Source: Cephalotus follicularis
Lineage: Eukaryota; Streptophyta; Magnoliopsida; Oxalidales; Cephalotaceae
Direction of reading: 5' to 3'
DNA: 64,000 nt
Assembly (NCBI GenBank): GCA_001972305.1
Contig: BDDD01000171.1
Coordinates: 466,561 to 530,560, forward strand
Numbering within the stretch: the stretch's first letter is position 1; the number at the start of each line of letters is the position of its first letter. Positions 4,727 through 62,346 of the stretch are shown here, one piece after another. A program made the position numbers and the translations under genes. The notes under the pieces were generated by a model that was not told the origin of the DNA, made no database searches, and saw only the letters and a list, made by a program, of their open reading frames with translations.

Positions 4727-5092
4727 CTGTCGACGCTTAAAGGATAAGCGTTGACGCTTTTAACTGTAATACGCTATAACGTCAACGCTTAGAGGAAACG
4801 TTGATGCCTTGGTTCGTTGTGCATTGAATTGGACGCATAAAACGTTGATGCTTAAGTTTCCTATCTTAAAGCGTCGACGCTATCAAGTAAATCACTGATG
4901 CTCAAGGATGCTTACTTTGAAGCGTCGACACCAAGAACAAATGTTGACGCTTAAAACTACTGGTTAAAGCGCTGATGCTAAGAATCAAAGCGTCGACGGT
5001 TAAAGGACATAAGCGTCGATGCCAAGAGTAAAATGGCGACGCTTAAGTGGCTGGTTTGAACGTTGACGCTCAGACAGTACACATTGACGCTG
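4727..5092. repeat. GCGTCGACGC palindrome array in LTR A copy 1
   Basis: About 15 units by eye of AAGCGTCGACGCTT and decayed forms (GCGTTGACGC, ACGTCAACGC, GCGTCGATGC). Core starts fall near 4729, 4749, 4781, 4799, 4842, 4871, 4892, 4922, 4943, 4969, 4990, 5013, 5035, 5061 and 5083; most intervals are 20-30 bp. Confidence 0.9.
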
Positions 5093-5678
5093 AAAGAGCC
5101 TGTTTGAATTTTGAGCATATGTTTGCTTGCATGTTGTTATGGATTGAATTGTTGTTTGGATTGTTAACGGTTTCGAAAAAAAATTTCCATTTTGGAAAGT
5201 GCATACATGATTTGAAATAAATCATTATTTTACATGAAATATTATATTTCAAAGAATTGGATATTGTTTTCAAGGATTGGATTTACATTTTGAACAATGT
5301 AAGTATTCAAGTATTTTATAACTTATAAACTACTTGAAACGGATAGATTTTTGGATTAATTGTTGGAATGTGATTGTGATTGTTGCTGTATTGGTTGCGT
5401 GGCAGAGGTTTCCATTGACTGCTAATGGCAGGTTTGGGCTCTAGGTGCTAGGAGATGGCTAGGGACACCCGCACTGGTTACTTAGCCACCGTGCAAGTAA
5501 CATGGATTGTTGACCTGCTTCAAGTCGGCTGGAGACGGGGCTGAAGTAGGAGACAACGTCGGGGCCAGGAAATGGCGACACTTTTCGTAAGTATGGATTG
5601 ATTGTTTGGTCCTTTGAGGACATGATTACTGGATTATGTTGATGTAGCCACTTGGCATGGTTGCTCATATATTGGAGA

Positions 5679-5684
5679 ATATAC

Positions 5685-5718
<34 letters not shown>

Positions 5719-5807
5719 ATATACATATATACATATATACATATATATATATCTATATATACATATATACATATATATATATATATATGTATGTATATAT
5801 GTACGTA
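5679..5807. repeat. AT/ATAC microsatellite in LTR A copy 1
   Basis: Long run of TA dinucleotides with interspersed ATAC and GTATGT steps. It occupies the slot filled by a (TG)n tract in LTR A copy 2 (58019-58055). Hydrophobic Tyr/Ile-rich ORFs here are only microsatellite translations. Confidence 0.9.
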
Positions 5808-6300
5808 TTGTTAATATATTATGTATTGCATCACGGTGCATTCATTGCATGACATTTATTACTTTTATATCTTTCCTACTTAGCCAGTGGATTCGGCTAG
5901 CCCTATCAATTTCAAATTGATGCAGTGGGATCGATATGGACGAGTGTGGTAAGACCAAGAGAAGAATAAAGATGTAATATTTTCATGGAATAATGTTTAA
6001 TTGTTGTGGTTGTATTCCTGTTGGATTATTGTAATTGATGGATTAATGTATTGATTGGATAATATTTGATCATGCTCCGTTTGTGGGAGATTAACGATGA
6101 ATTAATTGCATTGTTATTAAACAATTAGTAACATGTAGTATGGGATGCATGTTACGTACTTAATTCAGCTTATGTTTTATGCTTTCGCAATGATTATGTA
6201 TGAATTGGAAAGTTTTAAATTTTTCGTAATTTTATATATAAGCTTAATATATGTTGATTTCCATGACCACAGGCTCGATATGCGGGAATGGGGCATGATA

Positions 6301-7118
6301 GTATCGCAAGAAACCTCTCATTCCCAATCTCCCAGTGCCCGACCGGGACTTTAAGTCTTCAACGGTTACAGATGTTATAGAGCCTATAACCTTCAAAACG
6401 GGTATGACAGTCCCATCTTGCGCACTCGCCCATACATCTCAATGCAGCTCTCACAATGCCCCAAGACAACCTTTTTGACAGAACGTGGCTAGTGCTGGGG
6501 AAGTTGGAAATCAAAGCCAAGCGGTTACTACACAACGCATGCCAGCCGCTCAGGTCTATGGACACAACGTAAATCACGTATGATCTACTAGTCACCTTTG
6601 ACTAAACACTACCACGACAATAGTAACTCTATTAACAGAGGTGTTGACTCTCCAAATAGATAACCTATGGTTGGTCAGTTCAGTGTCATGCCTCTGCACG
6701 CACCCCGCATCAGCTTTTGGTAAAACCTAAATGGTAAATAGATGATCCATCCTCCCTATTACAACAGGAGCAAGCATAACACGGCAAGCCTTTGCGGTTC
6801 ATCAATTGCCCAGAAAGTGAACCTATTACTTGGAACTTTTTTCTGAAGGGACTAAGGATCTCATTCTCATAACCTCTCAGGCATGAGAACTAACCCCTCG
6901 GGGACAGGGCGCTATATGTGTACTCAATTGACATGGTGATCAACTGATCTGTAATGACGGTTTGGGATTATACGTATAGCCATCAGATGCCAATGTTTAT
7001 CAACTATGCACAATAGAACACGAATAGAACTAAGAATGTATGATTCAAGAGTGTGTCATATGTAAAGTACATATGTCTGCAGCCTCCTCGTGGCTTGCAG
7101 GGACACCCGAATCTAACA
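6301..7118 (-). mobile_element. 3' LTR (partial) of old copia element K
   Basis: In minus orientation it begins TGTTAGATTCGGG at 7118 next to a polypurine tract. It aligns block by block with the copia LTR at about 39690-40462; for example CTTGCGCACTCGCC near 6418 lines up with TTGCGCACTCGC near 39790. That alignment shows 6301 is mid-LTR, cut by the insertion of LTR A. Heavily diverged, so probably the oldest layer at the left of the window. Confidence 0.7.
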
Positions 7119-7131
7119 ATCTCCCACTTGG
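7119..7131 (-). other. Polypurine tract of copia K
   Basis: On the minus strand AAGTGGGAGAT immediately precedes the LTR start TGTTAGA, the usual arrangement for second-strand priming in copia elements. Confidence 0.75.
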
Positions 7132-9080: not shown

Positions 9081-11247
9081 TGTTAGATATAGTGACCCGA
9101 CAAGCCATTAGATAGGTTGTCACATTATATCATATCTTGTATGAAACAATCTTATTCCGTATATATATATATATGATGCATGCTAATTTTGTTATGTCTA
9201 TATCACTTGTGTTTTATCACTTAATTGAAGTAGTTTATTATTCACCTGCTTACACTTGTGATGCCCTAACATAAGGTTGGATGCCTAGCATAGAGGCTGT
9301 GAGATTGGTTAACTTATCCCTTATGTCGAATTTGTTCCAAGTCATAGGTTCACTTTGTGGGCATTAGTGAACCGGATAGACTTGCGCATATGTTTCCTGC
9401 TCATGGAATTGGAGGATGGATTCTCTCACTACCATCTGTGTTGGAGACTAGGGAAAATACGGGGTGCGCGCTGGGAGTGTGTACACTGAACAGGACCCGC
9501 GTAGGAGACACTATTTGGATAGTTTCTATTCTCGTGTCAGTAGTGACTCCTACTTGTTGCGGTTGTGTATAAGTGATGATCACTTAGCGAGTTCTCAAAC
9601 TCGTCTGATCCTTAGACCTGAGCGACTATTCTCTATTGTATGGAGACGGTTATGATTTGATCTCCACCTTACCCAGTCCTTGCGCAGGGCTGGCAATCAG
9701 GTGGTCTTTGGGTATGATCGAATCTATACGGATATAAGTGAGTGCGCAATATGGGATTGTCACACCTGAGCGAAGGTGATCGGCCCTATTATGGTCTGAT
9801 TATACTTTGGACTTATGAAATCCTTGGCCAAGGTTGAGGTAGACTGGAAATTAGATTTCTGGAGAGTTTACCAAAGGTCCTAGTAATTATCAGATATTTT
9901 AGTCATTGAGGTATTATCTAGGGTTGACACATATCCTTACCCTAGACCTCAATCGGGGCCAAGCATGACAAGGGATTATAGTACACATGAACCGATGACT
10001 TAGAAAATCTTTGGTTATTGAGGTGTGGGAAAATTAATTGGATTAATTTTTCCATCTGGATAATATATTGATATTATTCCAATAGCATTTAAATTGGTCG
10101 AGGACCATTTAGAATGGCTAAACCGGACCCAAGGGGTATTTCGGTAATTTATGAACACCTCTTGTCTTAACCAAGATTTTAAAGGGTCCCTGCCTTATCA
10201 TGATTAGATCTTTAATATGTTGGACATATTAAGTCTTGGTGTCAAATATCGGTTATATGGATTTTGCATTTTGTGGAAACACATATGTTTGATCTTAGTT
10301 AACCAATATTCGAAGGGTACATGAGATCACTAAAAGAGTTAGACTCTTGATGTTTCACTGGCCAGACAAAGCGTCGACGTCTTTTAGAAAGACGTCGATG
10401 CTTAACGTTTTTATAGGCATCGATGTCTTCTAGAAAGAGTCGATGTTCTTAGCACCACATTGCATAAGCGTCGATGTCCTTTGGAAGGCGTCGACGTCTT
10501 TGAGTAGAACGTGCAACCTGTGCACGAGCTCACTTCGTGGGCACATTTTCTCTCTCATCTCCAGCAGCCATCTCCCATTCTTGCATGTTATGGGAACATG
10601 GGGATCATGGCCATAGACTCCCTAGGAGTGAGGACCATGATCCTAAGTGAATGGGAGAGTGGGAGAGAGGAGGAGGCTAGTTATAAACATTTTCTATAGA
10701 AAATGAACAAAGAGAGGAGTAGAGTTTTTGTTGGGCAAGTGACTTCAGATTCTTCTCTGCAGAGTGTGTTCCTTTCATCTGTGATACACCAAGCAAGTGC
10801 TTATCTAGGGTGGGTTGATTCTTGAATTCATTGGTCAATATCAATTTACCTTTTCTAAGCTTAGTGTGTGAGAGAGAGAGTTCATACACTTGGTTCTCGG
10901 TTATTTCTAGTTGGATTGCTTGCTGTTCCAGTGACTTGGAGAAGATTAAAGAGGGAATCTACTCAAGCGTATAGCGGCAAAGAAAGAAGGAGCCTTCACC
11001 CGCTGGTATATCTCTTGGTCCTTCTCTTCTTTCCATGCTTGTGTGTCACCATTGTATGCTATGGTGTCACCAATTCAATTCTGTTGATGATGTGGTGATC
11101 CATGTGGTCTGTGGACATGCCATAATGGACTGCATTCGTTTTATTGGGTGTTCTCCCGCTGCCATGTTTATATGTTTTTGTTTTGTTCTACACTCTACAC
11201 ACCATAGTCCATTTATGGCTCCGGATTTGGTTTATCCGATTCCTTCA
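9081..11247 (+). mobile_element. Solo copia LTR F with 5-bp target-site duplication
   Basis: Starts TGTTAGATATAGTGACC and ends ...CGATTCCTTCA; flanked on both sides by GTTTC (9076-9080 and 11248-11252), a perfect duplication. Length 2167 bp. It is closely related, in reverse orientation, to the LTR at 33891-40462 and to the split LTR at 42020-54374. It contains a TA microsatellite near 9160, a GTCGAC array at 10371-10501, a candidate TATA (TTATAAAC near 10680), and no protein-coding region. No internal element sequence lies beside it, so it is the product of LTR-LTR recombination. Confidence 0.9.
10371..10501. repeat. GTCGACGTCTT palindrome array in copia LTR F
   Basis: Six units of the form GCGTCGACGTCTT, alternating with reverse-complement forms (AAGACGTCGATGCTT, GGCATCGATGTCTTC), over 130 bp, about 300 bp upstream of the candidate TATA box, hence in U3. 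Confidence 0.9.
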
Positions 11248-18686: not shown

Positions 18687-18835
18687 CTAAGCCGTAAAAA
18701 CGGTCAGAGCCCGTATGTATAGTGGTAAAGTCGTAAAAATGGTCAGAACCCATAGTATAGTGGTAAAGCCGTAAAAACGGTAAGAACCCGTAAGTATAGT
18801 GGTAAAGCCGTAAAAATGGTCAGAACCCTTAGGCG
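18687..18835. repeat. 39-bp minisatellite in LTR J
   Basis: Nearly four tandem units containing TAAAGCCGTAAAAACGG and CAGAACCCGTA; unit starts near 18687, 18726, 18764 and 18803. Confidence 0.9.
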
Positions 18836-19464: not shown

Positions 19465-19607
19465 ACGTAAAGTGTCGACTATTCAGTTAACACACAAAAG
19501 AGTCGACGGTTTTAGAAATCATAAGTATAAAACATCGACTACTCAGTTTAAAACATGAAAGCGTCGACGGGTTTGGTTTTGAAAGCGTAAAGCGTCGACG
19601 GTTTTGA
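19465..19607. repeat. GTCGAC array in LTR J
   Basis: Five units such as AGTGTCGACT, GAGTCGACGG, ACATCGACT and AGCGTCGACGG, spaced about 27-33 bp. The right half-site is often GG/AC rather than GC, so the palindrome is less perfect than in LTR A. Confidence 0.8.
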
Positions 19608-29744: not shown

Positions 29745-30045
29745 TTTTATGCCTAAGCGTCTACACCTTAAGATAAAGCATCGACGCTTAATGCCAAAAA
29801 CGTCGACAGTTTAAAAACAAAAGCCCAGCATGCGTCGACGCTTATTGCCTAAGCGTTGACAGTTTAAAAACAAACGCTTAGAAAACGTCGACGCTTACTG
29901 CCTAAGCGTCGACAGTTTGCAACAAACCGTCAACGCTCAAGACATTAAACAGCGCTTAACTTAATCACTTATACAAGCGTCAAAGCCTTAACCACAAAGC
30001 GTCGACGCTCAAAAAATAAGCGTTGATGCTTATCAGTACTACAGT
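29745..30045. repeat. GCGTCGACGC array in copia N leader
   Basis: About eleven units; many alternate between the full palindrome GCGTCGACGCTTA and AAGCGTCGACAGTTT, with a shared spacer word TGCCTAAGCG. This array is in transcribed leader, not in the LTR. Confidence 0.88.
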
Positions 30046-34700: not shown

Positions 34701-34860
34701 TTAAGCATCAACGCCTTCGGTATAAGCATCGACGCTTTGGCGTTGAGATTTCATAGTTCTTTCGAGATGAAACACGTCGATGCCTATGCAATTGACATCG
34801 ACGCTTTTTGCTTTTAAAGGTGTAAGCGTCGACGCTTTTCCTTTACCGTGGACGCTTAAG
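34701..34860. repeat. GCGTCGACGC array 1 in LTR G
   Basis: Six to seven units (AAGCATCAACGCC, AAGCATCGACGCTT, CACGTCGATGCC, GACATCGACGC, AAGCGTCGACGCTT, ACCGTGGACGCTT) spaced 20-35 bp. Confidence 0.88.
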
Positions 34861-35434: not shown

Positions 35435-35712
35435 GTAAAGCGTCGACGCCTATATGTGTAAAACCTGTTTTTAAACGCCATGCTTGTGTCTAAGCGTCGA
35501 TTATTTTGGTTAATCCGTCGACGCTTATGACTTAAACGTTAACACTTTTATTTAAATGTTGACGCTTATGTCTTGGATTGCCATATTGTTCTTCAACGCT
35601 TTGTTCAGTAATTGGGCCTTTGCTGTGTTGAAACCGTCGACCCCTTTTGTTAAGCGCCAACGCTTTTGACACGCACGTCGATGCTTTTTTTGACATACAC
35701 GTCCACACTTTG
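35435..35712. repeat. GCGTCGACGC array 2 in LTR G
   Basis: About ten units, from AAGCGTCGACGCC at 35439 to CACGTCCACACTTTG at 35700, many decayed (AACGTTAACAC, AATGTTGACGC, AAGCGCCAACGC). This is a second separate array in the same LTR, 570 bp downstream of the first. Confidence 0.85.
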
Positions 35713-37150: not shown

Positions 37151-37162
37151 TGGTATCAGAGA
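37151..37162 (+). other. Primer-binding site of element G
   Basis: TGGTATCAGAGA, 11 of 12 bases of the Met-tRNA type site, 5 nt after the LTR end at 37145. Confidence 0.9.
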
Positions 37163-39019: not shown

Positions 39020-39125
39020 CTAAGCATCGACGTTTTTTTCAAAAGCGTTAGCATTGCGCTTAGACATGATTAAAGCGTTGACGCTTTTCCAAAAAGCATC
39101 AACGCTTAGAGCATCGATGCTTTGA
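39020..39125. repeat. GCGTCGACGC array in copia N LTR
   Basis: Five units (AAGCATCGACGTTTT, AAGCGTTAGCATT, AAGCGTTGACGCTT, AAGCATCAACGCTT, GAGCATCGATGCTTT) over 105 bp, at the position equivalent to 10371-10501 in LTR F. Confidence 0.85.
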
Positions 39126-42019: not shown

Positions 42020-42508
42020 ACTACCATCTATGTTGCGACACTAGGGCAAATAGCGGGTGCGTCATGGGAGCATGTACACTGAACTGGACCAGTGTAGGTG
42101 ACACAATTTGGATAGTCGTTATTCTCGTGTCAGTAGTGACTCCTACTTGTTGTGGTTGTGTATAAGTGCTAGTCGCTTAGCGAGTTCTCAAACTCATCTG
42201 ATCCTTAGACATGAGCGACCGCCCTATATTGTATGGAGACGGTTATGCTTTGATCTCCACCTTACCCAGTTTTTGCATAGGGCTGACAATCGGGTGTTCT
42301 TTGGGTATGATCGAATATATATGAATATAAGTGAGTGCGCAATATGAGATTGTCACACCTGAGAAAAGGTGATCGGCCCTATTATGATATGATTATATTT
42401 TGGACTTATGAAATCATTGGCCAAGGTTGAGGTGGACTGGAAATTAGATTTCCAGAGAGTTTTCCAAAGGTCCTAGTAATGATCATATATTTTAGCCATT
42501 GAGGTAAT
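42020..42508 (+). mobile_element. Copia LTR fragment, left part
   Basis: Plus-orientation copia LTR equivalent to about 9430-9908 of LTR F (GTGTACACTGAACTGGACC near 42070, GATCGGCCCTATTATG near 42371). Its own start is lost at the junction with RT. The CACTACCATCT at 42017-42027 is also present in the LTR (9426), which marks a microhomology junction. It continues at 53030 after Athila element C. Confidence 0.85.
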
Positions 42509-42676
42509 TGTTCACGAATTTTTGAATGTTTTAAATTTATACCGCAAGTTCACGGTTTTGCAGTAATGGGTCGAACACTAGGAAATCAAGTTAAATTAAT
42601 TTTAATCTTTTTAACGTAAGCGTAGCATGCAAAATTGAGGTCCAATTATGAAAACTACTCCTAAACATACAAAACT

Positions 42677-45477
42677 TGCCAGGACCCGTTCCTGCTAACT
42701 CTATGGGACACGTGCCCTGACCAGGGATGGCGCTCCTCTTGCCAACAACCCTCTCTAACTGAAACTGCCCGAGGAGAAAGCCTGGGCTGGGCTAGGCGCA
42801 CAACTAACAGGGCAGCCGGGGCAAAGGAGCTAACTTCTCTCCTGCTCATGCCCCCACACACAACTTAAAACCAAAACTTCAAATGCGCCGTAACTCTAAT
42901 GCCCAAGGCTTTACTTAACCAAGGCTCCAAAACGCGCCGCATTCTTCAGCCCCACGTGCTCCTCACATGGACTTAACATAATGCGCAAAGCATGCTCGGG
43001 GAGAGCACACACGTACAACCCACGAGCCCACTTAACCAACATGCCCGGGGACACTCCTTGTCCTCAGGTCTTTCTCCTTCCCAGGCTAAAACACCCTTAG
43101 TCCAAGCTTCAAACGTTGCGCATAACTAACGCTTGGGGAGAAACCAACATAAGCGCCTGGGGAGAATCCCACGCACGCTTCAAGTGATCGCTTAAATCCA
43201 CACTAGACCACACATACATCTCTTGTCCCCCGACGTACAACCTCCTCTGTGTGTCCCTAGGGATCACAAAACAGCGCACCGTTTAACTTAAACGCTCTTC
43301 ATAAAACTTATGCCCATCCCGGGCCTTACTCTAGCATGGCACCCCTGGCCACTCTCTCCAGGGACACTTTTCCTGCTCCCTTGCTAAGGCCCAACGTCAA
43401 CATCGTCCTAGGGACAACCTACCTCCCCGGGGTAAAGCTCATAACCCGTGCTCCCAAGCTTAACCACCCCTGCTGCGCTCATCTCCGCTACACTAGCCTG
43501 GGGACTCTCTAGATCCCCCGCTGGGCCTGGGATCACAAAACTCATAACATAAAACATTCATAAAAACACAAGATGAACACATCTGTAAACTCAAAACATC
43601 CATAACATATCCCAAAAGTATCAAACTATTACATATTTGTGCTCTGGCATACAAACAATGCCTTCCTTGGCAGGCAAAAGAACAACATATCTTTACAAGG
43701 AAAAGCTCTCAACTACTCAGCTACAAAAGAAAGTTAAAAGAACCCAAGGAATATTCCCCATGCTATGCAAAGCTAAACGCCCGAGTTGGCATCCCGTGTT
43801 GCTGAGCTCAAAAACTACCTTACTAGCTAGCTACTGCTGGGCTGGAGGATCTCCTCCGGCTGTCTAGCTTGCAAAAGAAGCTATGAGGGGATTAGTCGAA
43901 CTGACTAAGTGACTGGGAACAAACATCCTCTGTTGCATCCATAAAAAGGAATGCGCTGAAGAAAACTTACCATGAGCAAGAATAACTATCCCGACTGGGG
44001 AAAAGACTGTATGAAAAGCATATATCTCATGGCATACAATAAAGAAACGCTCAAAGTACATGAAAAACTTACTCTTTCTCTGCTTAGCTAGTTCTAGAAC
44101 GTTCATATAAGCAGAGATAAACTTAAGAGTACAACTCATAAAAAGAAAGGTATCTGATAGAGAACTGGGGTCCTTCCCAGCTAAACACTCGAGGAGAACA
44201 ACTAAGCTAGGACTGGCTTTTCTTTACTGTGCTTGTTGATCTAGGCCGAAGCCTGCCGGTTACATAATATATATACTTGCCAACTTATAGTGGCCTGAGC
44301 TGAGCTGGTTTCTGGCCTAAGTCGGGCTGGGCAGCTTACCTACCGACCCATCTGTACTTTCTGTTTATTTCGACCTAAGCCGAGCTGGGCAGCTTTCCTA
44401 TCGACTCATCTGTACTTTGCTTTGCTTGCTGCTTAGCAGCTGAGACATACTGGTAGGGGACTAAAAGTCCGAGGACAAGGTCCTCCTCTGGAAAACCTAC
44501 TGAAAGGCTCTCTACACTACTATATCTGATAACTTGGCTCAATTGTACTCACCGCTATACATTGTCCTAGCAACAATGCAAGGGGATCCAGGTATGGGAC
44601 CCGGGGATAGACTCACTCAACTTCTCATCCTGGTGATGATAGGCTAAGGAGGAAGGAGCTTGTACATGTGTGTTCGACTGCACTTACCGTGTACACTGTC
44701 CTAGCCACAATGTAAGGAGATCCAGGTAGGACCTGGGGGCAGACTCTCTCAACAACCCATCATAGACAATAGGTATGCTGAGAAGGGGGGTGAACACGTA
44801 CACACCATCTCATCCGTAGATGGACGATATAAGGATGCTTAACATCTTTCTTTGCTATGGGCTATGAAACACTCCACTCAAAAAGAATGGTTAACATAAG
44901 ACATTAGGGAAAATGACTTCCCATCATAACTCACTTACTAAATTAAAGCTGAGGAGAAGGAATCTCAAAGAAAATAATATGAACAATGAAATGCTTTAAA
45001 AGAAAGGATGCCCACTCACAGTTCTTGCTACTTCCTTGGAAGTTAGCATCCCTTCTTCTCTGCTACTCTCTTCTTCTGGCTTGTCTGCTTCTTCCACTGC
45101 TGCGCTCGGAAAGCTTCAACTGCTACTGGTCCAGGCGCACGAATGAAGAAGAAGAAGAAAAGAAAACTACAGCTCTCTCTCTCTCTCTCTCTCTCTCTAA
45201 AACTCTATAAACTCTCTACTGAAGCTAGAAGAAACGATGATTACCACTCAAAAAGTCCCCACACAATCCCAACTTAAGCCGTCAAACGTCTTGGGATATG
45301 GAAGCTTCCTCAACAAGCTTTGCACTTAAGTCCTCTAACTATCACTAATCATGCTTTACACTTGGGCTTATAACGCATACAACACTTAACCTTCTTCTCT
45401 TTCTCAAATTAAGTCCAAAGCCCATAAAAAAAATTATACACCATAGAAAAGTTCCAAAACTGCTACGGGGCGTTACA
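42677..45477 (-). mobile_element. Solo gypsy LTR D nested in Athila C LTR
   Basis: On minus it runs TGTAACGCCCCGTAG...CGGGTCCTGGCA, 2801 bp, with perfect AAACT duplications (42672-42676, 45478-45482). GC-rich block 42680-43540 with many CCCGGGGA-like words; a (CT) run at 45171-45197. A roughly 115-bp unit around the words ACTGTCCTAG..CAATG is duplicated (44540-44650, 44680-44790), as is a block near 44290-44420. No GTCGAC array and no coding region. This is the innermost and therefore youngest layer in this stack. Confidence 0.92.
42690..43540. repeat. CCCGGGGA word block in LTR D
   Basis: Repeated CpG-containing words GCCCGGGGAC, GCTCGGGGAGAGC, GCCTGGGGAGA, GCTTGGGGAGA and CCCCGGGG at irregular intervals, in the distal (3') half of LTR D. 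Other LTRs here have their own short-word block. Confidence 0.55.
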
Positions 45478-45509
45478 AAACTAAACTAATTTATTAAAAC
45501 AGCAACTAA

Positions 45510-45612
45510 AGGCGTCGACGCTTTGTCAAGGCATCGACGTGAATAAAATTAAAGCAGAAATACGTCGACGCTTACAGGGTAGGCATCGATGGTTAAAGGC
45601 ACTGATGCAACA
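45510..45612. repeat. GCGTCGACGC array (R/U5 side) in left LTR of Athila C
   Basis: Five units: GGCGTCGACGCTTT, GGCATCGACGTG, TACGTCGACGCTTA, GGCATCGATGGTT, GGCACTGATGC. The right LTR counterpart 51633-51720 has lost about 45 bp including one unit. Confidence 0.88.
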
Positions 45613-46356
45613 ATAAATAGAAATTAAAGTAGGTAAACAATTAAATATCAAAGCAATAAATAGAATGGAATGAAATATGCAAATTAAAGTCGGTTTTAGG
45701 GTATAGAAACTCACCATAGATTATATTGAACAACTCACTTACTTGATTGATCAAACCTTTGTAACCAACGGCAGCTAGGTTGATACAGAATGCGACTGTG
45801 ATGACAAATCGTATAAGTAGTCATGCTAGGTCTATATGGAATACGGCAGCAGCGGCAAATCATATGAGTATACATGCTAGGTCTATACAGTGTGTGTTCG
45901 GCATGACAAACTATATGAGTAGACTCCATTGATTGCGTTAAAAACCATTTATTCAGCAACTTTCATATTCACCAACAAGATATTTGTGGATTTTAATCAG
46001 ACAGAGAAAGTGTGTCTGAAGGTGGAAAATTGAAGAACAAATCGAAACATCAGGGATTTTTATTGATGAAATTGAAGCAATACAATCTAATGGCTTGTTT
46101 TTGCCCTAAAAACCTTAAGAATTTAGCTACTAAACATTAAAAATAAAACTACAAATATTGAAGAAAATAGCTAATGGTGGCAAAGCTTGTCACTAGCTTG
46201 TACCCTTGTTTTTGTGACCTAGCTCTTCTATTTATAGTGTAACAATCATGCATAAAATAAACGGAAAAAGATCTAACCTAATTAATCTAGAAAACGAAAA
46301 TTACAACTTGCTAAAACTTTCCATATCTGCTGATTTTGTCGCCTGATGAGTCGTAA

Positions 46357-46790
46357 GCGTCGACGCTATGCTCGTAGGCGTTGACGCTTATGACTTGAAA
46401 GCGTTTGATGCTCTACACGTTGATGTTTGGCATCGACATGAATATACAAATTGTAGTGTTAAGCGTCGACGCTTAAAAGCATGACGTCAACGCTTTAAAT
46501 GTGAAGGCCGGAGGCGTTGACGTTTTTCTTGTTGCACGTGAACGTTTAAGCTACTATCCAATTTGTGCACTTTTAGCATTGACGTCTTGATCATGGCGTT
46601 GACGCCTAAACATTAAATTCCCAGCACGTTGACGCCATAAGGATTGTTGTTGACGAAAATCATAAAACTGCAAACTTGTTCCAGGTGAAGTGTAAAGCGT
46701 CGATGCTTTGTTTGAAACCATCAGCGCTTAAGAGTTAGGCATCGACACTTAAAGTCTAGGCGTCGACACTTTGTTCTATTTTCTGTAGAT
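46357..46790. repeat. GCGTCGACGC array (U3) in left LTR of Athila C
   Basis: About 17 units over 430 bp, from AAGCGTCGACGC at 46357 to GGCGTCGACACTTTG at 46760, upstream (on minus) of the TATA box. Mixed decay states; the right LTR shows the same units with independent changes. Confidence 0.9.
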
Positions 46791-46937
46791 TTTTCACCAA
46801 TTTGGCTCATTCTTCATGCACTTTGGTCTTTTTACTCTTGTACCTGAAAATTAATCATACACAACCAAAGTAGTCTATTCCAAGCATAGAAATATCACGA
46901 ATAAATCATTAAAAACAACACATTTTTATGCTAAAAA

Positions 46938-51435: not shown

Positions 51436-51452
51436 CCCCGGCAACGGCGCCA
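51436..51452 (-). other. Primer-binding site of Athila C (Asp-tRNA type)
   Basis: Minus strand TGGCGCCGTTGCCGGGG, the classical Athila primer-binding site complementary to tRNA-Asp, 6 nt from the LTR edge at 51459. Confidence 0.93.
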
Positions 51453-51632
51453 AAAACTTGTTCACGAATTTTTGAATATTTTAAATTTATACCGCAAGTG
51501 CACAGTTGTTCAGTAATGGGTCAAACACTAAGAAATCAAGTTAAATTAATTTTAATCTATTTAACCTAAGCATAGCATGCAAAATTGAGGTCCAATTATG
51601 AAAACTACTCCTAAACATGCAAAACTAAACTA

Positions 51633-51720
51633 ATTTAGGCGTCGATGTGAATAAAATTAAAGCAGAAAAACGTCGACGCTTACAGGGTAGGCGTCGACGG
51701 ATAAAGGCACTGATGCGATG
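51633..51720. repeat. GCGTCGACGC array (R/U5 side) in right LTR of Athila C
   Basis: Four units (GGCGTCGATGTG, AACGTCGACGCTTA, GGCGTCGACGGA, GGCACTGATGC). Confidence 0.85.
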
Positions 51721-52462
51721 ATAAACAAAAATTAAAGGAGGCAAATAATTAAATATCAAAGCAATAAATAAAACAGAATGAAATATGCAAATTAAAGTCG
51801 GTTTTAGGGTATAGAAACTCACCATAGATTATATTGAACAACTCACTTACTTGATTGATCAAACCTTAGTAACCAACGGCAGCTAGGTCGATACGGAGTG
51901 CGACTATGATGACAAATAGTAATAGTAGTCATGCTAGGTCTATACGGAGTATGGCAGCAGCAGCAAATCGTATGAGTAGACATGCTAGGTCTATACGGTG
52001 TGTGTTTGGCGTGACAAACAGTATGAGTAGACTCCATTGATTCCATTAAAAACCATTTATTCAGCAACTTTCGTATTCACCGACAAGATATTTATGGATT
52101 TTAATCAGACAGAAAAAGTGTGTGTGAAGGCAGAAAATTGAAGAACAAATCGGAACTTCAAGGATTTTTATTGATGGAATTGAAGGAATACAATCTAATT
52201 GCTTGTTCTTACCCTAAAAACCCTAAGAATTTAGCTACTAAACATTGAAAATAAAACTACAAATATTGAAGAAAATGACTAATGGTGACAAAGCTTGTCA
52301 CTAGCTTGTACACTTGTTTTTATGACCTAGCTCTTCTATTTATAATGTAACAATCATGCATAAAAGAAACGGAAAAAGATCTAACCTAATTAATCTAGAA
52401 AAGGAAAATTATAACTTGCTAAAACTTTCCATATCTGCTGTTTTTGTCACCTAATGAGTCGT

Positions 52463-52862
52463 AAGCATCGACGCTATGCTCATAGGCGTCGACGCTTATG
52501 ACTTGAAAGTGTTTGATGCTCTACACGTTGATGTTTGGCGTCGACATGAATATCCAAATTGCCGTGTTAAGCATCGACGGTTTAAATGTGAAGGCAGGAG
52601 GCGTTGACGTTTTTCTTGTTGCATGTTAACGTTTAAGCTACTGTCCAATTTGTGGACTTTCGGCGTTGACGTCTTGATCATGGCGTTGACGCCTAAACAT
52701 TAAATTCCCAGCACTTTGACGCCATAAGGATTGGTGTTGACGAAAATCATAAAACTGCAAACTTGTTCCAGGTGAAGTGTAAAGCGTCGATGCTTTCTTT
52801 GAAACTGTCAGCGCTTAAGAGTTAGGCGTTGACGCTTAAATTTTAGGCGTCGATGCTTTGCT
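52463..52862. repeat. GCGTCGACGC array (U3) in right LTR of Athila C
   Basis: About 15 units, colinear with 46357-46790. A stretch containing two units of the left copy (around 46462-46500) is missing here, so array length varies between the two LTRs of one element. Confidence 0.88.
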
Positions 52863-53029
52863 CTGTTTTCTATAGATTTTTCACCAATTTGGCTCATTCT
52901 TCATGCACTTTGGTCTTTTTACTCTTGTACCTGAAAATTAATCATACACAACCAAAGTAGTCTATTTCAAGAATAAAAATATCACGAATAATTCATTAAA
53001 AACAACACATTTCTATGCTAAACAGTAAT

Positions 53030-54374
53030 ATCTAGGGTTGACACTATCCTTACCCTAGACCTTAATTGTGGCCAAGTATGACGAGGGATTCTAGTACAAG
53101 CAAACCGATGACTTAAAAAGTCTCGCGTTACGGTGGTGTGTTATAAATTATGAGAAAATTAACTAGAGTAATTTTTCATCTGGATAATATTGGATATTAG
53201 TCCGGAAGCATTTTAAATAGGTCTAGGACTATTTAGAATGGCTTAACCGAACCCTAGGGGTATTTCAGTAATTTACGAACACCATCGATTTTAACCGAGA
53301 TTTTAAAGGGTTCCTGTCCGATAATGATATCTTCTTAAATATGTTTGACATATTTATTCTAGGTGACAATTGTAAAATCAAATATTGGTTAGGTGGATTT
53401 TATGAATTGTGTCATTGTTATATTGTGACACATTTGCTTGATCTTATTTAATTAATATTCGAAGGGACATGTGGCATTACTAAAAAGAGTAGGACTCATT
53501 TAAGTTACGGTTGGTTGTTTTCTTGGAGAAATGAATATGTGTCATACAAAGAATGAGCTGGACTCATTTTTGACACGTGTATAGCCTACCATCTCCAAGT
53601 GTCGACGCCTTTGGAGAAAGCGTCGACACTTAGTGCGTTAACGTGGGTACGCGACGTGCGCACGATCTCTCTTCCACTCCCAGCGATTTTCACTTCTCAG
53701 AGAGTTGAAGGGAGCACGTCGGGATCATGGGAACATGTTTCCTTAGAGGAAGCGGCATGATCCGGTAGTGCATAAGTGGGTGCAATAGGTTGTGTGATTT
53801 TGGCGGAGCCTATGCGTGTGACAAAATAGACAGACCTGCTGACAGGAAAACTGAGTAAGAAAATTGCTGAAAAAGTTCTCTGAACACTTGAGCAATCCCT
53901 TCTCTGATTAGTTCACCAAGTTTGGAGCTAACCTAGGGTGGATTGTGATTGACTATCTTTGTCAAGTTCTATGCATCCTATGTGAGCATAGTGAGAGAGA
54001 GAGAATACAGAGGCTGTTTTTCTTTTATGGTCGGTTGCTGGCGTTTGAACCTGTTGCTTGGAGCAGTAGAATTTTGACTAGGAGGAGGAATTAAAAGCTT
54101 GAACATTTAGAGGGAATTTACTCAAGCTTGAACTGGCAAAGACGAAGGAGCCATCACCGATTGATATGATTCTTGTTCCTCTCTGTGTCGCTATGTTAGC
54201 TCATCACACAAGCATGCATGTGTGTTGATCATTCAATTGTGTTATTGATGTGGTGTTCCTTGTGACCTGCATTCCCTGAATTGAACTTGTTTCTTGGTGT
54301 TAGAGGTTTTAGCTTCCGCTGCTTATTGATCATAAAAAATTTTGCCGCACCTTTAACACCCTAGTCCGATTTCA
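53030..54374 (+). mobile_element. Copia LTR fragment, right part
   Basis: Continues the LTR interrupted by Athila C, equivalent to about 9914-11247 of LTR F (ATCTAGGGTTGACAC at 53030; GGCAAAGACGAAGGAGCC near 54136). It probably ends near CCGATTTCA (54374). It carries two or three GTCGAC units at 53597-53645 (AAGTGTCGACGCCTTTGG, AAGCGTCGACACTT). The right flank is a Tat-type gag; the left end of this LTR is lost, so no duplication can be tested. Confidence 0.75.
53597..53645. repeat. Short GTCGAC array in the split copia LTR
   Basis: Two clear units plus a decayed third (GTGCGTTAACG), at the same LTR position as 10371-10501 and 39020-39125 but with fewer units. Confidence 0.8.
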
Positions 54375-57534: not shown

Positions 57535-58007
57535 TGTCACACCCCGTTCTCATAATTCGACTTGAAGGTCGAGACAATCAACATATATTCAGCTTATATC
57601 AAATTACGAAAAATTTAAAATTTTCCAATTCATACATAATCATTGCGGAAGCATAACATAAGCCGAATTAAATATGTAACATGTATCTCATACTACATAT
57701 TACCAATATTTAACATCAATACAATAACTTCATCGTTAATTGCCCATAAAATGGAGTATGAACTAAATCAGTCAATACATTAAACCCATTATTACAATAA
57801 TCCATTTAACATTCCTCAAAAATAAAACACCTTAAACTTCTCTTCGTTTTCCCAAAGATCGACGATGTTGATCCACTACATCAATATGAAATTGGTAGGG
57901 TTAACCGAATCCACTGGCTAAGTAGGAAAAATATAAATACACTTTGGGGTCAACGATAATAAATGTCATGTACTGAATGCATTCGTGATGCAATACATAA
58001 TATATCA

Positions 58008-58018
<11 letters not shown>

Positions 58019-58055
<37 letters not shown>
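58019..58055. repeat. (TG)n microsatellite in LTR A copy 2
   Basis: Uninterrupted TG run after a short TA run, in the slot where copy 1 has a 129-bp AT/ATAC tract. Confidence 0.95.
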
Positions 58056-58056
<1 letters not shown>

Positions 58057-58619
58057 AATAGGTAAGCAACCATACCATGTGGCTACAACCATACAATCCA
58101 TAAATCATGTCCAAAGGACCAATATCACATATCGACGCTAACCGTCCAAGGCTAGGAAAGCACGCAGGCTAACCGGCACGCGATCTGGGAAAGCTCGACC
58201 AAACAATATGATGCTAACCATCCGAGGCTAGGAAAGCAAGCAGGCTGACCGGCACGTAGGCTGGGAAAGCTCAACCAATCCAATCAATCAATTATGTTCC
58301 AAGTAATTTATACATTCATAAATGCTTGGAATCATATACACATTTGGATATATATAATAATAATCCTTTCAAAGTTCATCATCAAGTAATTTATATGTCA
58401 TAAAATTCTTGTCAAAACATATTTATCCAAAATATGTAACCATCTTTTGAAACCGCGTTTCAAATCTGTTGAAATATAATGTTTCATGTCAAATAATGAT
58501 TTATAGTAAAATCATGTAAGCACTTTTATAAAATGATAAAACATTTTAGAAACCATTGCCAATCCAATCGATAGCAATATACAATGCAAACATATGCTCA
58601 AAATGCAAACAGGCTCTAT

Positions 58620-58990
58620 TCGCGTCAACGTACACCGTATAGGCGTCAAAGTTCAATCCAGTCACTTAAGCGTCGCCGTTTATCTCTAGGCGTCGACGGT
58701 TATGTCCTCTAAGCGTCAGCACTTTAACACTTAGCGTCAACACTTTGGTACAGAAGCTCTAGGCGTCATTACCATGTCTCTTTGCGTCGACGCTCAAGGC
58801 ATGGACCCTTAAGTGTCAGTGCTTATTTCCTTAGCGTCAACGCTTTGAGGTAGGAACCTCAGGCGTCAACGCTTCACGCATCCATTTTCACGCATAACAA
58901 ACCAAGACATCGATGCTTTCCTCTAAGCATCAACGTTTATCACGAAAACAGTGTTCCTTCTCTGCATAACAGTCCATAGCGTCGACGGTT
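58620..58990. repeat. GCGTCGACGC array (inner) in LTR A copy 2
   Basis: About 15 units (for example CGCGTCAACGT, TAGCGTCGACGGTT, TTGCGTCGACGCTC, AAGCATCAACG), corresponding to 4727-5092 in copy 1. Confidence 0.88.
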
Positions 58991-59754
58991 AAAGAAGACC
59001 AGAACATCATCTTCTTCAACACTTCTCAAAACCAGTGGGAATCAAACCAAATCATACATGCAATTCAATCCAATATCATTCCAGAATAGCAGGCATGGTA
59101 GGTTAACTATTATAGCAACCATATCAACAATCATTCAGTCCACAATTTCGCAATAGCCATGCAAAACATCAATGATCATTTACTATATTTGAACTCAAAT
59201 TTGCATGTATATAGTCCCTACATTAGATTCCCAGTTAGGAATTGAAGTCCACCTCTTTAAGCTCACCAACCAGTAGCTTTGAGCTCCTCAGTAGCTCCAA
59301 ATCTGAGCTTCCAACTCCCAAGCTTCAAGCTTTCCAAGCTTTTGTCTAGCCCAACAATGGAGGATATGGTTTCCTCTATCTTTTCTCTCTCTTTTTCTGG
59401 TTTCTCTCACTGTTTCCCTCTCTTCCTTTTCTGTTTCCTTGCTCTTTTCTTTCCTTCCAAGTCCGATTTGAAGAAGAAGATGAGAGCGTGCGCTTTATGC
59501 ACGTTTTTCTCTCTCTTTCCCTCACTCGCCTGCATGCGCCATGTGCGTGACGCCAGGCACTTCTCTTTCTCTCTTTCACATACCGCATGACACCCATGTG
59601 TCATCCTTTCTCTTCCATTCTGTCATGGCAGGCCGTGAATCATGGCAATGTGTCTAACACGCCATCATAGGCGTGATAAAGCCCCAAATAGTGGTTAACA
59701 CCTGCCTCCTTCACACGTTTTCTGACAGTGTTTCAATGTGTCTGTTGTTTGTCT

Positions 59755-59912
59755 TTAAGCATCAACGGTTACGCCATTGGCGTCGACGCTTAACCCTGTG
59801 CACTTCTGGGTGTCGACGCTATCACTTGGCGTCAACGCTTTGCGGACATATGTTTTGAGAGCGCATTTTGCTCCCTTGGCGTCCACGCTTTACTCTTGGG
59901 CGTCCACGCTTT
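59755..59912. repeat. GCGTCGACGC array (outer) in LTR A copy 2
   Basis: Six units (AAGCATCAACGGTTA, GGCGTCGACGCTTA, GGTGTCGACGCTA, GGCGTCAACGCTT, GGCGTCCACGCTTTA twice). This second array near the LTR start is lost from copy 1 with the interrupted segment. Confidence 0.88.
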
Positions 59913-60075
59913 AGGCAATTTCCACATTTCAATATTCCAATTCAATACAACATTCTCAATATTCTTCACCCAAAATCCAACACCAAAAGTTGGAAAATCC
60001 ATAATTTCATTCGTTTATTATGTGATTACAACGGAAATTTCAATAATACATTATATGGAAATTTGGGATATTACA

Positions 60076-60300
60076 TGCAGCCCCTACCCATCATGTATTG
60101 CATTTGATATATGAGACATCGCAGGAGACCCCTCATCTTTGAGAGCACCCATTTAGTAAGATAAAAAAAAAGGAAGCTGAAGATGCAAACTGAGAAGACG
60201 AACACAATGATGGGAGAAATAATGGCACCAATGTAAAACACAACTCCAAAGCCCAAGAAACAATCCGGGACATTATTCTACAAGACACCACGATCAGAAA
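60076..60300 (-). pseudogene. Possible captured or residual exon (membrane-protein-like)
   Basis: Minus reading from about 60275 gives PDCFLGFGVVFYIGAIISPI, IVFVFSVCIFSFLFFYLTKW, VLSKMRGLL, a hydrophobic segment of roughly 30 residues ending in basic residues. Upstream on minus, TTGTAG at about 60282 could be a splice acceptor. Its codon texture is unlike the surrounding retroelement debris. It abuts LTR A copy 2. I do not recognise the protein; it could also be chance. Confidence 0.3.
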
Positions 60301-60606
60301 ATTTGTATTAAAATGATGTGAAAAATGTTGCCAAACACGTGCAGATCTTCCCTTTATTTGTTGCATTATGCTCCAATGATTGAAATATGTCACTGAATTT
60401 TATGCTTAAAAGTAAACATCCAAGCCGATGGTCAATTGATGGTAGAAGTGGGTTGGTTTGATTGTTCTCTAAGTGTTAGACAAAATGATTGTTCAAAAAG
60501 GACAATGTTTGTAACCAGAGGGAACACCTCATCCCCCACCTCGCCAACGCCTAGATCCACAACAAGCATCTACGCCTCTATACACAACTAATAGACATAA
60601 TAACCA

Positions 60607-60668
60607 CTTCAACTTACAATCACAAGCCCACATGGAAGCCAATATGTGCTTGTGATTATGAGTTGAAG
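60607..60668. repeat. Inverted repeat (26-bp arms, 10-nt loop)
   Basis: CTTCAACTTACAATCACAAG... pairs with ...CTTGTGATTATGAGTTGAAG; 22 of 26 positions pair. Could be a decayed MITE end or a small foldback. Confidence 0.75.
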
Positions 60669-61029
60669 AATAGAGACCAAAGGGACTCGGCAAATTTCAA
60701 CTCAAGAAAGTGACACAGCCAACTCTTATTGGTTACTGTTGGATGTTCAACATCATGTTTGTGACTCTTCACCATTACTGCATGTGGTTTCCCTTTTGGG
60801 TCTCCTATACTTCGATCGCGATCTGTAGTGTTTTTTTTTTAATTTTGTTTTTCGTGAGTTATACAAAACAAATAGGAGAGTGGAGAAAAGAGGTCAGAAA
60901 AGAGAGTGAGAGAAGGTGGCTGACGAAATCGGTGCAGCTGAGCTATGGGTGGCTGTTTGTTGAAGGTGTTGGTGACTTGGGTTTGATTAAAGGTCTTAGT
61001 GGCTTGGCTTGGGTATGGCTGCAAACGAA

Positions 61030-61190
61030 CCAAGTCGAGTCGAGCTTAAACCTGTTCAAGCTCTGTTCGTTAAGATTTTATCGAGTCCGAGTTCGAGTCG
61101 AGCTCTATGAGATTTTATCGAGTTCGAGTTCAAATCGAACTTTTTCGAACTCGAGTCGAGCTCGAGCTTTTAACGAGCTTAAAAATTTCT
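61030..61190. repeat. GAGTCGAGCTCGAG-type degenerate repeat block
   Basis: Repeated words GAGTCGAGCT, GTTCGAGTCGAGCTC, ATCGAGTTCGAGTT and GAACTCGAGTCGAGCTCG. Such words are common in subterminal regions of plant hAT-type DNA transposons; no terminal inverted repeat or transposase is seen here. Confidence 0.5.
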
Positions 61191-61522
61191 TGTTCGAGTT
61201 TGGCTCAATGAGAAAAATAAGAGTTTGAACTAAAATTCGCTAATAATTGTTTTTATTTTCTTAAAAAAAACTAAAAGAATAATTAAATTGAATATCAATC
61301 TTTCAATCTTCTCAAATAATTTTTACAAGTCATCAAACAACATAAAAATGCAAATCCAATATTATTCATCCAAACTCAATTTAGTTAATTTTTAAAATGC
61401 TCTATATTGTATACTATATTGTATAAAATGTATCTTATTGTATTTGTCCTTTTATAGATTCAAAAATGTATAGTATGTTGTACAAGAACAAATTAGAATA
61501 ATTAATAAAATAAAAAGTCCAT

Positions 61523-62346
61523 TGTTTAGCATAAAAATTGTTGTTTTTAATGTGTTATCTGTGATATTTTTATGCTTGGAATAGACTACTTTGGTTGTGT
61601 TATATTGATTTTCAGGTATAAGTGCTAAATGACCAAAGTTCAAGAATACTACCCAAAAGTGTGCAAAATTGGAGCTTAAAGTGTAAAGATTGAAGAATTG
61701 CCAAATTCTGTAGAAAACAGACCAAAAGCGTCGACGTCTTTCAATACACATCGATGTCTTTTCTGGGTTTACAACAAAGAAGTCGACGTCTTTTCTGGGA
61801 AATGCAACAATCTTCAAAGAGCTATGAACATGACATCGACGTCTTTCACACAAGGGATCGACGACTTTATGCCAATTCGACCTGTAACTTTTGAAGCAAA
61901 AGAAGTCGACGTCTTTATCCATAGGAGTCGACGCCTTTCACTCGCATCTCAGCAAATCGTGATTTTTACCTAAAGAAGTCGACGCCTTTCTAAAGAAGTC
62001 GACGTCTTCTTCTGCAGCAGAAATAGAAAGTTTAGATTTTTGCCATATTTTGTAACTAGGATTGCTTTTATTCCGTTTTTGATCAACTTTGTAGTATATA
62101 AGCAATGTTATTTCGGCAGAATCAAGAAGTAGAATAGTAGAGAGGCTGTAGAACCCTAATTTTCTTTCATCAATTTAGTTTTATTTTTACAATGTCTAGT
62201 AGCTAAACTTTTCAAGGTTTTAGGGAAGAACAAGCCTAGATTGTTATTGTTTCAATTCCATCAATAAAAATCCTTGAATATTTGATTTGTTCTTCAATAT
62301 TTCTGCCTTCGCACACACTTTGCCTGTCTGATTAAAATCCACAAAG
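61523..62346 (+). mobile_element. Truncated Athila 5' LTR
   Basis: Opens TGTTTAGCATAAAAATTG, like LTR C, with the shared block ATGCTTGGAATAGACTACTT near 61573. TATA TATATAAG at 62095-62102, then the R region ending GTCTGATTAAAATCCACAAA, after which RT coding sequence starts at once. The rest of the LTR, primer-binding site, gag, protease and RT fingers are deleted. Its GTCGAC array uses a different arm (GTCGACGTCTTT) from LTR C. Confidence 0.85.
61722..62015. repeat. AGTCGACGTCTT array in truncated Athila LTR
   Basis: About ten units: AAGCGTCGACGTCTTTC, CACATCGATGTCTTTT, GAAGTCGACGTCTTT (several), GGAGTCGACGCCTTTC. It ends about 80 bp before the TATA box. Confidence 0.9.

Follow-up and report, generated by a model that had tools for sequence, protein, structure and literature searches.

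Why should one self-complementary motif, repeated at short intervals, recur in the long terminal repeats (LTRs) and leaders of retrotransposons belonging to unrelated families? The question was raised by a 64,000-nucleotide stretch of the Cephalotus follicularis genome (here called the window), for which a sequence-only reading had listed such arrays in gypsy, Athila-like, and copia elements.

Abundance and position of the arrays

Within the 64-kb window, GCGTCGACGC was matched 48 times at ≤1 mismatch (0.17 expected), and the 14-mer 79 times at ≤3 mismatches (0.9 expected). In the whole genome of 1.58 Gb, 18,108 exact copies of the 14-mer were counted, compared with 15 of the reversed control; the arrays are thus real, as the first reading had supposed, and spread genome-wide, and a chance origin is ruled out by the window counts, the genome-wide counts, and the counts of pairs described below. 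The palindrome control was a local count over 264 kb of the GTCGAC-core 10-mers, standing in for the GAGTCGACTC pair: only 2 of the 16 palindromic 10-mers with this core were abundant (35 and 26 copies), the next having 5 and the others 0 or 1. Among 20 stretches of 10 kb picked without regard to the motif, six contained arrays of the listed palindrome, designated type 1; a second dialect is designated type 2. Loci fetched from the same genome carry L-numbers. The arrays and array-bearing LTRs of the window are as follows.

2716..2786, unstranded: type-2 array of four CAGTCGACTG-like units, 21/20/20 bp apart, missed by the first reading
3809..3888, unstranded: type-2 array, 21/28/21 bp
4725..5071, minus strand: 13-unit type-1 array (≤4 mismatches) inside the LTR at 4.06-6.3 kb
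10369..10499, plus strand: type-1 array, copia-group LTR
19470..19603, unstranded: type-1 array, LTR-like repeat of the same family as L019, L021, and L034
27558..27637, unstranded: type-2 array, 21/28/21 bp, flank homologous to that of 3809-3888
29755..30031, minus strand: type-1 array, probably in a copia leader; copia gag ORF at 26541-27077
34703..34857, minus strand: type-1 array 1, LTR upstream of an exact tRNA-iMet-type primer binding site (PBS) at 33889 (minus strand)
35438..35710, minus strand: type-1 array 2, same LTR region as 34703..34857
39022..39122, minus strand: type-1 array, copia-group sequence, ~1.5 kb from the RVT_2 ORF region 40649-42027
42508..46935, minus strand: other LTR of Athila-like element C, with arrays 45510-45594 and 46355-46771; split by an insertion
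51458..53022, minus strand: 5' LTR of Athila-like element C, with arrays 52463-52858 and 51668-51702; exact tRNA-Asp-type PBS at 51452
53597..53631, plus strand: type-1 pair, 21 bp apart, copia-group sequence
57535..60075, plus strand: single 2.5-kb LTR; arrays 58668-58990 and 59757-59911
61726..62003, unstranded: variant array, AAGAAGTCGACGTCTTT-like, adjoining sequence related to the element C LTR

Several of these arrays precede promoter-like sequences. In element orientation, the array at 4725..5071 precedes a TATAAAA-like site near 4.5 kb; the one at 58668-58990 precedes a TATA-like site at 59208. A single LTR (TGTCACACCCC...GGGATATTACA) contains both the 58.7-59.0 kb and the 59.8-59.9 kb array. 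In element C, array 52463-52858 lies about 120 bp upstream of TATAAATAG; this element has an exact TGGCGCCGTTGCC, which we take to be the tRNA-Asp-type PBS motif of Athila (Ty3/gypsy), as well as an aspartyl protease, while reverse transcriptase (RT) was not found in this copy. The flank of the array at 29755-30031, whose spacings are 21, 22, 32, 21, 32, 21, 21, 50, 22, and 21 bp, matches the flank of an array in the copia element L024, where the array lies 3' of a PBS-like sequence with 1 mismatch.

Kinship of the host LTRs

The ten LTR regions that carry arrays form about six groups, fewer than the first list implies, and no sequence common to different groups was detected outside the palindromes; after masking of the palindromes, sequence in common was found for only 5 of the 45 pairs of regions. 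Specifically, the LTR at 4.06-6.3 kb and that at 57535-60075 represent one family in opposite orientation, 71 to 78% identical in blocks, and the arrays at 10.4, 34.7-35.7, 39.0, and 53.6 kb have common flank or U5 sequence, which places them in one copia-type group. The earlier statement that no other sequence is shared among the host LTRs consequently holds between the groups, but not for several of the listed LTRs, which are homologous. Although these merge, the masked comparison rules out a single LTR family. Because so few masked pairs are alike and because dialect crosses LTR kinship (the LTRs of L009 and L018, related at their starts, differ in dialect), we agree with the first reading that common descent of the LTRs is insufficient to account for the arrays.

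No superfamily was assigned from coding domains to the LTRs at 4-6, 19.5, and 57.5-60 kb. A gypsy label for the 19.5-kb repeat, considered on account of a nearby PBS and gag, was dropped because the orientation is unclear, and no superfamily is claimed.

Spacing of the palindromes

Exact type-1 pairs at 21 bp number 1,915, compared with 577 for 22 to 25 bp summed; for type 2, 25,896 pairs at 21 bp compare with 2,850 at 22 to 25 bp and 1,067 at 15 to 19 bp. In the window, after the sharp 21-bp peak, spacings cluster near 31, 42, 50 to 53, and 63 to 66 bp, with some at 25 and 45 to 47 bp. In a set of 14 array groups defined by flank homology and taken from the window and 20 loci chosen blind to the motif, the commonest short spacing was 21 bp in 13, two of these being tied with 20 bp. 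In the same set, longer spacings hold a phase of 10.5 to 11 bp (jitter P = 0.0002), the fit being slightly better for 11 than for 10.5 bp. An earlier form of the spacing test, in which 15 of 16 groups had a short spacing and all 15 had a mode of 21, had included 20 loci chosen for a 21-bp pair, and the test used here is the repeat without those loci.

The inner 7-mers of 50 listed 21-bp pairs comprise 40 distinct sequences, some of which recur; at ≤1 mismatch they form 25 clusters, compared with about 46 for random sequence, which indicates that the spacers are not all independent. Since the spacers vary widely, tandem duplication of a 21-bp unit is disfavored. The same variety bears on one option of the first reading, a horizontally exchanged U3 module, considered here as a single module passed among families through recombination or template switching. 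The occurrence of the same palindromes in unrelated LTRs and the recurring spacers speak for such exchange, but neither flanks nor spacers are homologous between groups and the spacers differ greatly; for these reasons we regard a swapped U3 module, and a recent exchange in particular, as improbable.

Two dialects that do not mix

The type-2 palindrome, CAGTCGACTG, was absent from the first list of arrays. Not one mixed type-1/type-2 pair at 21 bp was found. The gypsy LTR pair of L020, 96% identical over the part compared and enclosing gypsy RT and integrase domains, carries 10 and 12 type-2 units but lacks type-1 units. A gypsy LTR and a Sirevirus-like LTR between which no homology was detected use the same dialect, whereas the Sirevirus-like LTRs of L009 and L018 have related starts, yet different dialects. 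We infer that the two dialects are marks of two separate recognition systems.

Arrays and the PF20167 ORF of Sirevirus-like elements

L005, L009, and L018 are termed Sirevirus-like by their predicted Ty1/copia gag-pol and an env-like ORF after pol. L005 encodes copia gag, integrase, and RVT_2 followed by an ORF assigned to Pfam PF20167; L009 has RVT_2 and then the PF20167 ORF, and in L018 the pol tail was read by eye. The arrays occupy two places in these elements, one upstream of the TATA box and one just upstream of the post-pol ORF, with 7 + 3 (L005), 9 + 6 (L009), and 18 + 4 (L018) units in the LTR and ORF regions, respectively. The LTR array of L005 spans 3974-4338, with TATAAAA near 4433 as called by eye; in both L005 and element C the array lies 95 to 120 bp upstream of the TATA box.

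All 20 additional copies fetched from the L009 and L018 lineages likewise have arrays upstream of the ORF. Among these fetched ORFs, lineage predicts dialect: type 2 in 10 of 10 of the L018 lineage and type 1 in 10 of 10 of the L009 lineage. LTR-region and ORF arrays match in dialect in three of three elements (L005, L009, and L018), the LTR of L005 carrying one extra type-2-like unit at 2 mismatches. The L009 and L018 ORFs are only 22% identical, and ORF and dialect change together. A first look yielded 13,070 to 14,870 candidate PF20167 ORFs; each search scored 109 to 150 of them, and in many the frame is open.

At E ≤ 0.01 for L009 and E ≤ 0.1 for L018, PF20167 was the sole Pfam family returned. 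Hydropathy revealed no transmembrane segment in either ORF. The L009 ORF has basic clusters and a heptad-rich C-terminus; the same pattern found no basic clusters in L018. No DNA-binding domain was recognized in the PF20167 ORFs, the sole PDB match having an E value of 0.5, and the short stretches of array-bearing gypsy elements that were examined contained no visible ORF of this kind.

Conservation of the sites

In the L018 lineage, the per-site difference was 0.024 in palindromes and 0.246 in spacers, despite the CpG richness of the former. In the L009 lineage the palindromes are modestly conserved (0.162, compared with 0.292 in spacers), the upstream flank, at 0.154, being no worse; the units had been chosen by likeness to the motif. 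Mirrored changes in the dyad halves showed no covariation (40 seen, 54 expected), among units selected at ≤4 mismatches, which lowers the number of double changes. Because the halves do not covary, a selected hairpin, whether an RNA or a DNA stem, is disfavored. This result weighs against the idea that the palindromes are selected as small interfering RNA (siRNA)-making structures, or are a by-product of them. In maize Sireviruses, the palindrome regions of the LTRs are reported as small-RNA hotspots in the available part of PMC5311732; such a target, however, would need neither an exact 21-bp spacing nor exclusive dialects, and we consider it quite improbable here.

A candidate dimeric regulator

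Probably, judging from the sequence features above, the palindromes are cooperative sites for a dimeric DNA-binding protein that acts on both promoters and is either the PF20167 product or a host factor. A sequence-specific protein would bind the dyad as a dimer, and neighboring dimers, two helical turns apart, would occupy one face of the double helix. Serving as an enhancer or an anti-silencing platform, the arrays could then act on the LTR promoter; in Sirevirus-like copia elements they would act on an internal promoter of the post-pol PF20167 ORF as well. The latter elements hold all three parts, namely an array in the LTR, another before the ORF, and the ORF itself. Athila-like and other Ty3/gypsy LTRs and another copia group may have gained the same LTR sites and so answer to the same factor, and the two dialects would correspond to two recognition systems. 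Leader arrays and arrays 3' of the TATA box are not at classical enhancer positions. Of the earlier suggestion of convergent selection for a host DNA-binding protein, selection for a DNA-binding protein fits best, while a host and an element-encoded protein both stand.

One or more abundant host transcription factors, with sites evolved independently in each family and two paralogues reading the two dialects, are a serious, though tentative, candidate. They would suit the arrays upstream of TATA boxes and those in elements in which no PF20167 ORF was seen (L020, Athila-like C, and the LTR family at 57.5-60 kb), but a host factor alone leaves the link between dialect and ORF lineage and the absence of mixed 21-bp pairs unexplained.

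Almost as plausible, and likewise tentative, is the alternative that the PF20167 protein of Sirevirus-like elements is itself what binds the arrays and, in the manner of VANC, activates or desilences them, with gypsy elements exploiting it in trans. The arrays directly upstream of the ORF itself, the lineage-dialect match among the fetched ORFs, the joint switch of dialect and ORF between LTRs with related starts, the many open candidate frames, the lack of transmembrane segments, and the L009 basic clusters and heptads are consistent with this, as are predicted nuclear signals in a sunflower PF20167 ORF (available text of PMC11728184). Against it, the match, based on three compared ORF groups, could reflect inheritance of one upstream region per lineage; L018 lacks basic clusters, no DNA-binding domain was recognized, array-bearing gypsy stretches showed no such ORF, and VANC has DUF1985, unlike the L009 and L018 ORFs. 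By analogy, the env-like ORF of Sirevirus-type elements might encode not an envelope but a sequence-specific DNA-binding regulator of its own LTR and promoter arrays, protein and motif codiverging into non-cross-reacting dialects, with unrelated Ty3/gypsy families acquiring identical sites so as to exploit this regulator; this fuller version we hold to be rather unlikely.

Relation to known systems

Palindromic boxes at LTR and ORF sites of Sireviruses are already known. In the available portion of the 2010 report by Bousios et al. (PMC2829016), these repeated-motif (RM) boxes are palindromic units with at least eight copies per element, clustered before the TATA box in the LTR and found again before the env-like ORF, as are the arrays described here; they are termed Sirevirus specific and absent from classic copia elements. 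The motif varies between elements, and 12 of 13 listed have a CGG-CCG core, which AAGCGTCGACGCTT, GCGTCGACGC, and CAGTCGACTG lack. The Vitis box given there, CGGTCGACCG, shares the GTCGAC core, but has 0 copies in the 264 kb. The arrays differ further from what that portion describes in occurring also in Ty3/gypsy elements (the L020 LTR pair and Athila-like C) and another copia LTR group, and in their 21-bp phase, nonmixing dialects, and ORF-lineage link. Ty3/gypsy sharing, nonmixing dialects, two-turn spacing, and ORF-lineage coupling were not found in the literature searched, and the listed literature matches to the motif letters were all unrelated. If the regulatory code is common to unrelated superfamilies, families in one genome would compete for, or parasitize, the same activator.

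VANC proteins (DUF1985/DUF287) of Arabidopsis VANDAL DNA transposons have proven binding to a directional 9-mer, according to the accessible parts of PMC5735166 and PMC10398659. Short-motif arrays in noncoding parts, family-specific variants, and an extra ORF are common to both systems; here, in contrast, the elements are retrotransposons, the motifs are palindromes, the extra ORF belongs to PF20167, and binding is proposed. The maize Sirevirus palindromes likewise lie in an LTR regulatory region, but in the available text (PMC5311732) the hotspots are reported for maize Sireviruses only, with a role proposed via small RNAs.

Additional ORFs of plant LTR retrotransposons include the Transposase_32 (PF20167) ORF of sunflower Athila (PMC11728184) and the Retand TRP28 ORFs (PMC11963269). 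Like the ORFs studied here, they lie between pol and the 3' LTR; for such ORFs nuclear signals have been predicted and a regulatory role has been suggested in print, and no link to palindrome arrays is reported in the available parts of these papers and the review PMC7264820. VANC is named as a model in the accessible part of PMC12844716, where the question of whether the ORFs of LTR retrotransposons affect their own methylation is left open. The coupling of dialect to ORF lineage offers a direct test of the long-open role of env-like and additional ORFs.

PF20167 occurs here in Sirevirus-like copia elements and in elements with a gag ORF. A third PF20167 ORF group (20 loci) has mostly 19-bp spacing and a looser motif; its Athila label was dropped because the upstream ORF of L063 and L064 is 45 to 46% identical to the gag of Sirevirus-like L005, a kinship that, with L045 and L054 matching these two, covers 4 of the 20 loci.

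Palindrome arrays in otherwise unrelated LTRs

Palindrome arrays were found far above chance, as the sequence-only reading had supposed. With up to one mismatch allowed, GCGTCGACGC occurs 48 times in the window, where 0.17 matches would be expected; the 14-mer AAGCGTCGACGCTT, at up to three mismatches, occurs 79 times (expected, 0.9). Genome-wide (1,577,397,061 bases), the exact 14-mer was counted 18,108 times and a control pattern read backward 15 times; such genome-wide repeat counts are lower bounds. Twenty 10-kb stretches were taken from the same genome irrespective of the motif; six of them carried palindrome arrays, and all 20 together held 67 units at up to three mismatches, compared with one for the reversed control.

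Ten array-bearing LTR regions were masked for palindromes, and all 45 pairs were compared. Sequence in common was detected in five pairs, i.e., L005 with L009 (Sirevirus-like copia LTRs of one family), L009 with L018 (likewise a Sirevirus-like element; 51 bp matching where the two LTRs begin), and pairs within a copia trio formed by the regions at 10.4 kb and 34-36 kb and the copia element L024. The LTRs therefore appear to form about six groups without detected homology outside the palindromes. The earlier assertion that the host LTRs share nothing else applies between these groups and fails within them, while the central claim, that palindrome arrays are common to unrelated LTRs, survives. 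Specifically, the LTR at 57535-60075, which contains both the 58.7-59.0 and the 59.8-59.9 kb array, is of the same family as the LTR at 4.06-6.3 kb, in the opposite orientation. The arrays at 10.4, 34.7-35.7, 39.0, and 53.6 kb occur in related copia-type sequences with common flank or U5 segments, and the 29.8-30.0 kb array has a flank in common with an L024 array located downstream of a PBS-like site.

Two dialects with a common spacing

The window and the motif-blind stretches (200 kb) were scanned for all palindromic 10-mers. Besides AT repeats, CAGTCGACTG (35 copies) and GCGTCGACGC (26) stood out, the next having 8; if only the 16 palindromic 10-mers built around GTCGAC are considered, the third commonest had 5 copies and those after it 0 or 1. 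Units resembling GCGTCGACGC are termed type 1, and those resembling CAGTCGACTG type 2. Type-2 arrays of the window are as follows.

2716-2786, type-2 array
3809-3888, type-2 array
27558-27637, type-2 array

Genome-wide, exact pairs at 21-bp spacing numbered 1,915 for type 1 (control, 3) and 25,896 for type 2 (control, 89), and mixed pairs, counted at this spacing, numbered zero. At 22-25 bp, 577 type-1 pairs (summed) and 2,850 type-2 pairs were counted, with a further 1,067 type-2 pairs at 15-19 bp. The first 50 type-1 pairs listed at 21 bp had 43 distinct spacers in 33 clusters at one mismatch (largest, 10), and the 50 listed at 22-25 bp had 25 in 15 clusters (largest, 17 and 13). Clustering of the inner 7-mers from those first 50 pairs at 21 bp gave 25 clusters, where random 7-mers would give about 46, indicating that some of the pairs are copies from one family.

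Flank homology sorted 40 arrays, from the 20 motif-blind loci and from the window, into 14 groups; in 13 of these, 21 bp was the most frequent short spacing (tied with 20 bp in two), a count in which two arrays of one LTR may figure as two groups. At longer spacings, a periodicity of 10.5-11 bp is kept (jitter test on 55 group-spacing values, P = 0.0002), with 11 bp fitting slightly better than 10.5, and a run of the type 21, 51-53, 21 was present in nine of ten fetched L009-lineage arrays. Sites that all face one side of the helix would be expected to give this pattern. The array beside the second Athila-like LTR (61700-62010) has its own AAGAAGTCGACGTCTTT-like variant at 20-bp spacing, perhaps a third dialect.

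Array position and ORF lineage

With TATA boxes assigned by eye, TATAAAA lies 95 bp downstream of the end of the L005 LTR array, and TATAAATAG about 120 bp downstream of the end of that of element C, the Athila-like element of the window. L005, L009, and L018 each have a further array directly upstream of an extra post-pol ORF matching Pfam PF20167; the L005 match, for which the ORF start alone was compared, is weak (E = 0.0035), with 52% identity to the L009 ORF. Both positions resemble those of the palindromic boxes described by Bousios et al. (2010, PMC2829016), located in the LTR upstream of TATA and upstream of an env-like ORF; there, these boxes are termed Sirevirus-specific, and a common binding factor could not be named. 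The two gypsy LTRs of L020 (96% identical over the part compared) flank gypsy RT and integrase domains and carry 10 and 12 type-2 units; in the masked comparison, they had no sequence beyond the boxes in common with the LTR of L018.

First-look candidates for the PF20167 ORF family numbered 13,073; the 150 that were scored all lay above the cut-off. For each of the L018 and L009 lineages, 109 ORFs were scored and ten of them fetched. All ten L018-lineage ORFs had an upstream array of three or four type-2 units and none a type-1 unit, whereas all ten L009-lineage ORFs had four to eight type-1 units and none a type-2 unit. The L009 and L018 ORFs are 22% identical. LTR-region and ORF arrays are of the same dialect in all three elements (L005, L009, and L018), except for one type-2-like unit (two mismatches) in the L005 LTR. 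Since the L009 and L018 LTRs still begin with related sequence, the change of dialect accompanied that of the ORF inside a single lineage. Within L018, the segments 6548-6873 and 3805-4130 are 99.4% identical; LTR region downstream of the ORF has a copy joined to the pol end, perhaps an internal rearrangement.

A third PF20167 group was sampled as 20 of the 150 scored ORFs, each with 1.5 kb upstream. At least two type-1-like units (up to four mismatches) within 650 bp upstream were found for 18 of the 20, against 36 of 580 same-size windows in the motif-blind loci. The exceptions were L064, with one unit, and L047, with none, whose upstream region is another repeat carrying a type-2 array. These arrays follow a looser motif, GCGTYRACGC, most commonly spaced at 19 bp. 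One ORF of this group (L085) scored 89 bits to L009 and 58 to L018, and the group's motif is likewise nearer to that of L009. Upstream of two of the 20 ORFs lies an ORF with 45-46% identity to the L005 gag, and another two of the 20 match this pair. In L045, L054, L063, and L064, the PF20167 ORF closely follows a gag-like ORF without pol between, which suggests non-autonomous gag-ORF elements.

Conservation and a putative binding protein

Among ten L018-lineage copies, palindromes showed 0.024 differences per site versus 0.246 in spacers, despite CpG richness; in eleven L009-lineage copies the contrast was weaker (0.162 versus 0.292), the upstream flank (0.154) being as conserved as the palindromes, and in both cases units were chosen by motif likeness, a mild bias toward conservation. 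No compensatory change at mirrored palindrome positions was detected (40 seen versus 54 expected).

The best reading of these sequence features is that a dimeric DNA-binding protein would cover the arrays cooperatively and would control the LTR promoter and a putative internal promoter of the PF20167 ORF. The binder may be the element-encoded PF20167 protein, given that an array lies upstream of its own ORF, the dialect matches ORF lineage, and hydropathy indicates no transmembrane segment; the L009 ORF has basic clusters and a heptad-rich tail, and a sunflower PF20167 ORF is described with predicted nuclear signals (PMC11728184), but the L018 ORF lacks basic clusters. Alternatively, it may be a host protein, as several array-bearing families are without such an ORF in the stretches examined. 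VANC proteins of Arabidopsis DNA transposons are reported to bind motif arrays and lift silencing (PMC5735166), and a regulatory role, or VANC-like action on methylation, has already been considered for additional LTR-retrotransposon ORFs (PMC7264820, PMC11963269, PMC12844716). Cross-family sharing, phase, and coupling of array to ORF lineage were not found in the portions of open-access literature searched.

Other features of the window

Direct repeats of 293 bp (36853-37145 and 38625-38917; 93% identical) and a tRNA-iMet-like PBS at 37151 mark a short element that holds none of the window's listed palindrome arrays. A 39-bp tandem repeat at 18689-18832 (scores, 221 and 253) has no relation to the palindromes. 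Within element C, positions 50622-50728 (+) match the plant snoRNA R71 (Rfam RF00097) with 40.7 bits, the gathering threshold being 40.
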